A DNA stretch of 64,000 bases from Micromonospora sp. C31 (GTDB taxonomy: Bacteria > Actinomycetota > Actinomycetes > Mycobacteriales > Micromonosporaceae): assembly GCF_018070575.1 (NCBI RefSeq), contig NZ_JAGPXN010000009.1, positions 124,001-188,000 on the forward strand, written 5' to 3'. Position numbers and translations under genes: made by a program. Positions 12,193 through 13,315 of the stretch are shown here, piece by piece; within the stretch, counting starts at the first letter, position 1, and every line of letters begins with the position of its first letter. The notes beneath the pieces are model-generated. The model saw only the letters and a list, made by a program, of their open reading frames with translations. It made no database searches and was not told where the DNA came from.

Positions 12193-12597
12193 TCACGATC
12201 CGCCTCGCTGTTCGGCCAGCTCGGTGTCGACGTGCCCGAGTTCCGGTCGGGGCGCCAGCGGTCCGAGGTGGAAGACCACCTCGGCCGGCTCCTCGCCGGT
12301 GTTGCGCAGCCGGTGCCGGACGTTGCGCGGCACGAACAGCGCCTGCCCGGCTGGCAGCGGCACCGGCTCGTCGTCCAGGTCGACGGTGACCGCGCCCCGG
12401 GCCACATAGAGGAACTCCTCGCTGTACGGGTGGTAGTGCTCGGCGATCCGCTCCCCCCGGCGCAGCGTCGCCACCCCCATGAAACCCGAGGTGCTACCGA
12501 CGGTCTTCGGGCCGAGCAGCACCCGCAGTTCGCCGCCACGGCGGATGTCCGGCGCGACGTCGGCGGCGGCGACCAGCCGCAGGGCGCGCTCACTCAT
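12193..12597 (-). CDS. Cupin protein, WhiE ORF II-like
   Basis: A 134-residue single-domain cupin. The metal-binding first motif is visible around [18 protein letters not shown] (His, His, Glu) and the second around [20 protein letters not shown], which ends in the fourth ligand His. Cupins at this position in WhiE-type clusters are thought to help cyclise or oxygenate the nascent polyketide. The ATG at 12597 overlaps the ACP-aromatase gene by eight bases. A 55-base spacer then leads to KS alpha, the largest gap in the second half of the operon and a possible place for a secondary promoter. Confidence 0.87.
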
Positions 12598-13315
12598 CGC
12601 CGGCTCCCGTCGCCCGTCCGGCGCCGGCCAGCCGTTCGATCTTCTCCTTGATGACGGCGAGCTGCACCAGGCTGTTGGCGTTGATCCGGTCCGCCATGCC
12701 CGCGTCGTCCACCGGGGCGGTGGGCTTCATCGCGAAGTCCTGCACCCAGGTCATCCGGGTGCCGCCGGGCTCCTCGGTGTAACGCCAGTGGATGCGCATG
12801 TACTCGAACGGCCCGGTCTCCACCCGCCGGGCGTCGACCTGCCGGGTGGCCGGGTCGGCGGTGCGTTCGCTGACCCAGCTCCACACCGTGCCGTTCTCGT
12901 CGGGATGCATGGTGAGCCGGAACCGCACGGTGTCGCCGTCGCGGTGCAGGATCTCCGCGCGGGCGTACTCGGTGAACAGCCGCGGCCAGTTGGCGACGTC
13001 GTTGGTGACGTCCCAGACCAGCGGCAGCGGCGCGGCGACGAGGACGCTGTTCTCGGTGTGCCCCGGCGGGTCGGCGCGGCTGGCGACCAGCTCGGCCACG
13101 GCCGCGATGCTGAGCTGCCCCGCCTGCTCCGGGATCCGCACCTGCCACCGGTCGGCGACCACGGCCGAGAGTTCCAGCAGCGCCAGCGAGTCCATGCCGA
13201 GCTCCTCCAGGGACGCGGCCGGAGCGCGGGCGGCGGCGTCGGCGTCCAGCCCGCAGTTCGCCACCAGGATGTCGGTGATCTCGGCGGTCAGCGGACGGCC
13301 ATGGGTGACGGTCAT
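12590..13315 (-). CDS. ACP-aromatase/cyclase fusion protein
   Basis: A 241-residue two-domain protein. Residues 1-82 form an acyl carrier protein with the phosphopantetheine Ser43 in [11 protein letters not shown]. After a short linker, residues 88-241 form a SRPBCC (START-like) polyketide aromatase/cyclase beginning [19 protein letters not shown] and containing [12 protein letters not shown]. In Streptomyces WhiE these are two genes, ORF V and ORF VI. The fusion would tether the growing chain beside the enzyme that makes its first ring. No stop or shift interrupts the join and no other ACP exists in this operon, so the fused ACP must serve the minimal PKS. ATG at 13315 overlaps the AccC stop by four bases. 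Confidence 0.92.

Follow-up and report, generated by a model that had tools for sequence, protein, structure and literature searches.

In fungal non-reducing polyketide synthases (PKSs), the ACP is covalently linked to a product-template domain that sets first-ring folding. These enzymes are type I megasynthases, their cyclase fold is unrelated to that of the fusion described here, and their domain order is opposite. TcmN, a cyclase with the helix-grip fold, is also covalently attached to a second domain, but its partner is a methyltransferase (according to the PDB molecule name) instead of an ACP. Cyclase fusion to helper domains is already known in type II PKSs: BenH and cyclases of the WhiE protein 1/SchA type are fused to an ABM helper domain, and the fusions treated in PMC6689052 are without a carrier protein, unlike the one reported below. 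No ACP-aromatase/cyclase fusion was described in the open-licence literature searched (subscription journals and domain-architecture databases lay outside its scope). Protein contacts in type II PKSs are weak and their complexes are hard to study structurally, as noted in a 2025 review (PMC12664062).

We analyzed a window of 64,000 nucleotides from Micromonospora sp. C31, in which the ACP and the first-ring aromatase/cyclase lie in one gene, an ATG-to-TGA open frame on the minus strand (Table 1). A preliminary description of this DNA had proposed that equivalents of WhiE ORF V and ORF VI are joined in one 241-residue frame with an intact Ser43 attachment site, and Pfam, structure matches and the open frame itself bear this out. 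Specifically, PP-binding (PF00550) covers residues 13-64 (24.4 bits; cut-off 20.8) and Polyketide_cyc (PF03364) covers residues 93-204 (63.4 bits; cut-off 23.4). The best solved-structure match for the cyclase part was WhiE ORFVI (3tvr; residues 80-235, E 7e-63), and TcmN ARO/CYC (2rer) also matched (residues 85-237, E 3e-49). Compared with WhiE ORF VI of Streptomyces coelicolor (3tl1/3tvr), the fused cyclase domain is 60-61% identical and has the same fold. In an AlphaFold2 model built from 39 sequences (mean pLDDT 83.7, pTM 0.63), the ACP part is helical (helices 6-21, 43-57, 63-67 and 70-80), and the strands and helices of the cyclase begin four residues later. Foldseek searching with this model placed 3tvr and 3tl1 at the top ranks; the 50 matches listed were aromatase/cyclases and other proteins of the same general fold, with no ACP-cyclase pair by description among them.

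Ser43 sits within LGMDSL, and D42-S43-L44 as well as R151 (39/39) were invariant in the alignment of 39 sequences, the window's protein included. GxDSL was present in all 128 distinct fused proteins (a decayed copy, L277, left out), and the cyclase WVS-x-R motif was matched by pattern in 125 of them, the other three retaining the arginine in WI/WVSER. The fused ACP thus has the PP-binding domain and DSL serine of a type II PKS ACP, but it is not a free-standing small protein, being in one frame with the cyclase. The cyclase domain resembles the WhiE/TcmN type in sequence and fold and keeps the pocket arginine equivalent to TcmN R69, a residue needed for C9-C14 cyclisation according to the same review (PMC12664062). 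Homology to TcmN and WhiE suggests C9-C14 first-ring regiochemistry for the fused cyclase, and formation of holo-ACP is predicted on the fused ACP.

Table 1 Features of the fused gene and of the surrounding cluster (positions in the window)
Feature	Position	Strand	Remarks
ABM-domain protein	9233..9622	-	PF03992
Chain-length factor (KS-beta)	9619..10866	-	Ketosynthase family
KS-alpha	10863..12137	-	Cys in STGCTSG
Cupin	12193..12597	-	Cupin_2; start overlaps fused-gene stop by 8 nt
Fused ACP-aromatase/cyclase gene	12590..13315	-	241 aa
WhiE ORFVI/TcmN-type aromatase/cyclase domain, residues 85-241	12593..13063	-	
Arg151 codon	12863-12865	-	Aligns with TcmN Arg69 position
Junction, residues 81-84	13064..13075	-	Linker length variable among relatives
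ACP domain, residues 1-80	13076..13315	-	PF00550, invariant DSL
Ser43 codon (predicted phosphopantetheine site)	13187-13189	-	From sequence
AGGAGG, ribosome-binding-site-like	13321..13326	-	5 nt before fused-gene ATG
Biotin carboxylase	13312..14766	-	Start within frame uncertain
Biotin carboxyl carrier protein	14705..15250	-	Biotin_lipoyl; start picked by eye
AccD-AccA in one protein	15247..17025	-	Start uncertain
TcmI-type cyclase	16950..17333	-	PF04673
SARP-like regulator, BTAD domain	17563..18516	+	PF03704; start uncertain
Second TcmI-type cyclase	18639..18989	+	PF04673
FAD-dependent monooxygenase	19004..20353	+	PF01494

KS-alpha, the chain-length factor (CLF), the ACP, the aromatase/cyclase, a cupin, a TcmI-type cyclase and an ABM protein are all present in the window, which makes up a WhiE-like gene set. 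In the CLF, an Ala within VAEAAGG, which we take to be the CLF (KS-beta) motif, replaces the KS-alpha Cys. The cupin, the first TcmI-type cyclase and the monooxygenase presumably correspond to WhiE ORFII, ORFVII and ORFVIII, respectively. The ATG of the fused gene overlaps the biotin carboxylase stop by 4 nt, and the AccD-AccA, biotin carboxylase and carrier genes resemble a source of malonyl-CoA dedicated to the cluster. Both homology and gene context point to a WhiE-like, pigment-type type II PKS. Such whiE-type genes are associated with pigment in Micromonospora in PMC5765111, where whiE-ks, clf, I, II, VI and VII are listed and whiE V is not; the absent whiE V would fit an ACP hidden in the fusion.

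Relatives were classed at 286 loci with a cyclase match, a redundant set picked by similarity to the window's fused protein, with some species and places counted twice. The ACP and cyclase were fused at 154 loci, the ACP was a separate upstream gene at 123, and nine had no ACP within 900 nt. All 154 fusions belonged to the window's genus and family, which close named relatives suggest to be Micromonosporaceae, or to named Micromonosporaceae records; this group also included 31 separate and four ACP-less loci. Outside it, 92 separate and five ACP-less loci but no fusion were found in a sample that included 40 of the 55 order genomes with a match and 47 class-level places. Some of the separate forms inside the group are second clusters carried by members of the window's own genus. 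Among the first 100 loci, 80 of which were the best 80 of 482 relatives, so that the sample leans towards full-length matches, both domains shared one stop-free frame in 90: 20 genomes from the genus of the window plus 70 records named as Micromonosporaceae (Micromonospora, Salinispora, Verrucosispora and one without genus name). The ten unfused loci came from Streptomyces, Kitasatospora, Frankia, Lentzea and Amycolatopsis. A match to both domains was found in 36 of 37 genomes of the genus, contiguous in 34; the two apparent pieces in each of G016 and G020 turned out to belong to a single open frame whose linker is longer. In the genus and family genome search, four genomes of the genus (G010, G221, G265 and G275) gave no match to the fused protein. 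The join is free of stops in every fused gene except L277 (G274:C4:477000-479300), a decayed copy that carries an internal TAG and in which the start of the cyclase is damaged. The ACP-cyclase join is thus real and retained across many related species. An error of sequencing or assembly that removed a stop, named at the outset as what would undo the fusion, is rejected as practically impossible, the identical frame being open in many independent genomes.

The neighborhood was compared at the 54 of 70 named fused loci that have full flanks. Cupin, KS-alpha and CLF genes lay beside the fused gene in all 54, carboxylase genes in 46 and the ABM gene in 37. In another eight fused representatives, of which seven belong to other genera and one to that of the window, the order fusion-cupin-KS-CLF is kept, with carboxylase genes upstream in seven (not L297), TcmI upstream in seven (not L296) and the ABM gene in place in five. 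The ACP and cyclase shared one open frame at 54/54 loci, and seven other neighboring operon gene pairs did so at 0 of 37-54 loci, including cupin/KS-alpha, KS-alpha/CLF and fusion/cupin (0/54 each). For the biotin carboxylase/fusion pair, one frame was seen at one of 46 loci: in Micromonospora sp. KC213 (L041 6600-8705), the biotin carboxylase frame continues stop-free into the ACP-cyclase frame, which could reflect a three-part fusion in a single strain, an error or simply an upstream frame that happens to lack a stop. The suggestion that a covalent ACP-cyclase blurs the dissociated nature of the system holds locally, for these two proteins, but not for KS-alpha, CLF, the cupin, the TcmI-type cyclase and the ABM protein, which are still separate genes; the system therefore remains a type II PKS.

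In five Streptomyces-titled loci (L093, L095-L097 and L099), the ACP and cyclase are separate in the order cupin-KS-CLF-ACP-cyclase-TcmI, and Streptomyces L092 and Kitasatospora L091 are unfused in the order TcmI-ACP-cyclase-cupin-KS-CLF-ABM. The partner gene set of the Streptomyces loci (the S. coelicolor cluster itself left out) is similar to that of the window, which differs from them in having one protein and inserted acetyl-CoA carboxylase genes. Lentzea nigeriaca L094 and the second copy in G201 (L301/L274) show the window's order TcmI-AccDA-BCCP-BC-ACP/cyclase-cupin-KS-CLF-ABM, but with the ACP and cyclase as two genes; in L094 the junction reads TGA, one base, then GTG. These clusters picture the pre-fusion state. 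Across unfused pairs, the nearest cyclase start was 1 nt past the ACP stop in 41/122 and overlapped that stop or lay within 20 nt of it in 94/122. With genes so nearly abutting, fusion is mutationally easy, and it would have arisen through loss of the few bases that set an ACP gene apart from the first-ring cyclase gene immediately downstream.

Upstream of the cyclase in the window's gene, the closest in-frame start codon is GTG73, which lies 12 codons away inside the ACP, and the next one is codon 130. No ATG, GTG or TTG was found within six codons before the cyclase in the 129 distinct fused genes (L277 is counted here and left out of the 128 used elsewhere). Within eight codons, a start codon was found in 31/128 fused genes, all GTG at -7 or -8, compared with 103/122 unfused genes; within 12 codons, 74/128 fused genes had one. 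The counts within eight codons disfavor separate internal initiation of the cyclase, and an internal start producing free cyclase appears unlikely.

Ser43 and the first glycine of the cyclase (Gly85) are exactly 42 residues apart in 81 of the 129 distinct fused proteins, and this spacing ranged from 41 to 107 residues overall, indicating that precise geometry is not maintained. Longer linkers were rich in Ala, Pro, Gly and Thr, some with short tandem repeats. In unfused ACPs the tail alone has a median of 44 residues, versus 42 across the core-clade junction. Freely drifting linkers and the ease of fusion are both expected if a small indel fused the adjacent genes in an ancestor and the fused protein has no advantage in function over the pair, persisting since splitting would need a stop, a new start and a ribosome site. 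We regard this neutral fixation as a distinct possibility that falls short of an even chance.

The phylogeny bears on the same question. In a tree of ACP plus cyclase (99 rows, 29 of them fused; quick search without bootstrap), the 26 main fused rows formed one clade (98 SH-aLRT), as neutral fixation in an ancestor would predict. Grouping all 29 fused rows in one clade was rejected (p-AU 0.000456), so the fusion probably arose at least twice. Such further fusions outside the main clade, like the other close neighbors that stayed unfused in the same operon, argue against neutral fixation, which is nevertheless a serious rival that comes close to the cis-delivery reading given below. Because the topology test does not separate gain from loss of fusion, a single ancient event followed by numerous splits is a formal possibility; the test is most simply read as showing more than one origin, which is supported. 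In the cyclase-only tree, likewise from a quick search without bootstrap, the fused rows L105, L125 and L127 branched next to the main group without resolution; the tree of both parts places them with it. The outlying fusions in G116, G161 (a genome 69% complete) and G086 may represent one, two or three events. Two of them show the order TcmI-cupin-KS-CLF-fusion. The third, in G086 (L155/L289/L300), is a separately fused, divergent ACP-cyclase on a long branch, with an unlike neighborhood that lacks KS-alpha and CLF matches.

Our preferred reading, held at even confidence, is that the tether hands the ACP-bound chain in cis to the fused cyclase for first-ring closure. The phosphopantetheine arm would be attached to Ser43, malonyl-CoA would be supplied by the cluster's acetyl-CoA carboxylase, and the ACP domain would dock on the separate KS-alpha/CLF, where the poly-beta-ketone would be built on the ACP. 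The attached (or a neighboring) cyclase domain would then take the chain still on the ACP, closing and aromatizing the first ring with C9-C14 regiochemistry, and the free cupin and TcmI-type cyclases would act afterwards. The tether would raise the local cyclase concentration around every loaded ACP, and we propose that spontaneous misfolding is thereby limited. Any advantage of the tether is nonetheless conjectural. A functional role is favored by the likely repeated origin and by the lack of fusion in other neighboring pairs. It is not favored by the freely drifting linker lengths or by the ease with which such genes fuse, and the existence of two-gene clusters of the same architecture (L094 and L301) speaks against it. 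Retention by itself shows no advantage because re-splitting needs a stop and a new start. The original proposal that the fusion directs ring formation on the tethered chain is therefore plausible, and a neutral fusion that is hard to reverse would look alike.

Alternatively, the fusion could mainly set a 1:1 ratio and bring the cyclase to KS/CLF via ACP docking, with cyclisation in trans within the assembly. The short core-clade junction may limit reach in cis, but the long Ala/Pro/Gly/Thr-rich linkers elsewhere would permit cis delivery, and we consider this arrangement unlikely. It is highly improbable that the fused ACP is vestigial and that a second ACP in the window (6526-6792; PF00550, 21.8 bits, cut-off 20.8) serves KS-alpha/CLF: this second ACP has an AMP ligase gene and additional ketosynthase genes as its neighbors, and at 27 of the 54 full-flank loci no ACP-like frame besides that of the fusion was seen within about 8 kb, so that the fused ACP is probably the extension ACP of the cluster. 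Moreover, the ACP part of the fusion is under tighter constraint than the cyclase part. The median dN/dS among 81 distinct core genes was 0.149 for the ACP part (400 sampled pairs) and 0.341 for the cyclase part (399 pairs), showing purifying selection on both domains.

Returning to cis delivery, we tentatively suggest, with more doubt than conviction, that Micromonosporaceae pigment synthases have moved their first committed cyclisation in cis onto the carrier, so that a type II PKS would contain a partly assembled unit of type I character, one that arose more than once and whose tether controls first-ring regiochemistry or fidelity. A naturally tethered ACP-cyclase with untethered relatives from the same kind of cluster is a ready system for crystallizing the pair, and the fused/unfused contrast can be used for testing whether physical linkage sets the first-ring outcome; genome G201 carries both forms. 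In addition, natural linkers of many lengths are on offer for engineering.

A second gene set adjoins the pigment operon (window 645-8867). It comprises an HPPD-like dioxygenase, two further ketosynthases, two AMP-binding ligases, the second ACP mentioned above and, on the other strand, a phosphopantetheinyl transferase (6808-7551). Near the fusion in the 54 full-flank loci, the ligase at 7482-8867 had a match in 31, the second ACP in 27 and the transferase in 19.
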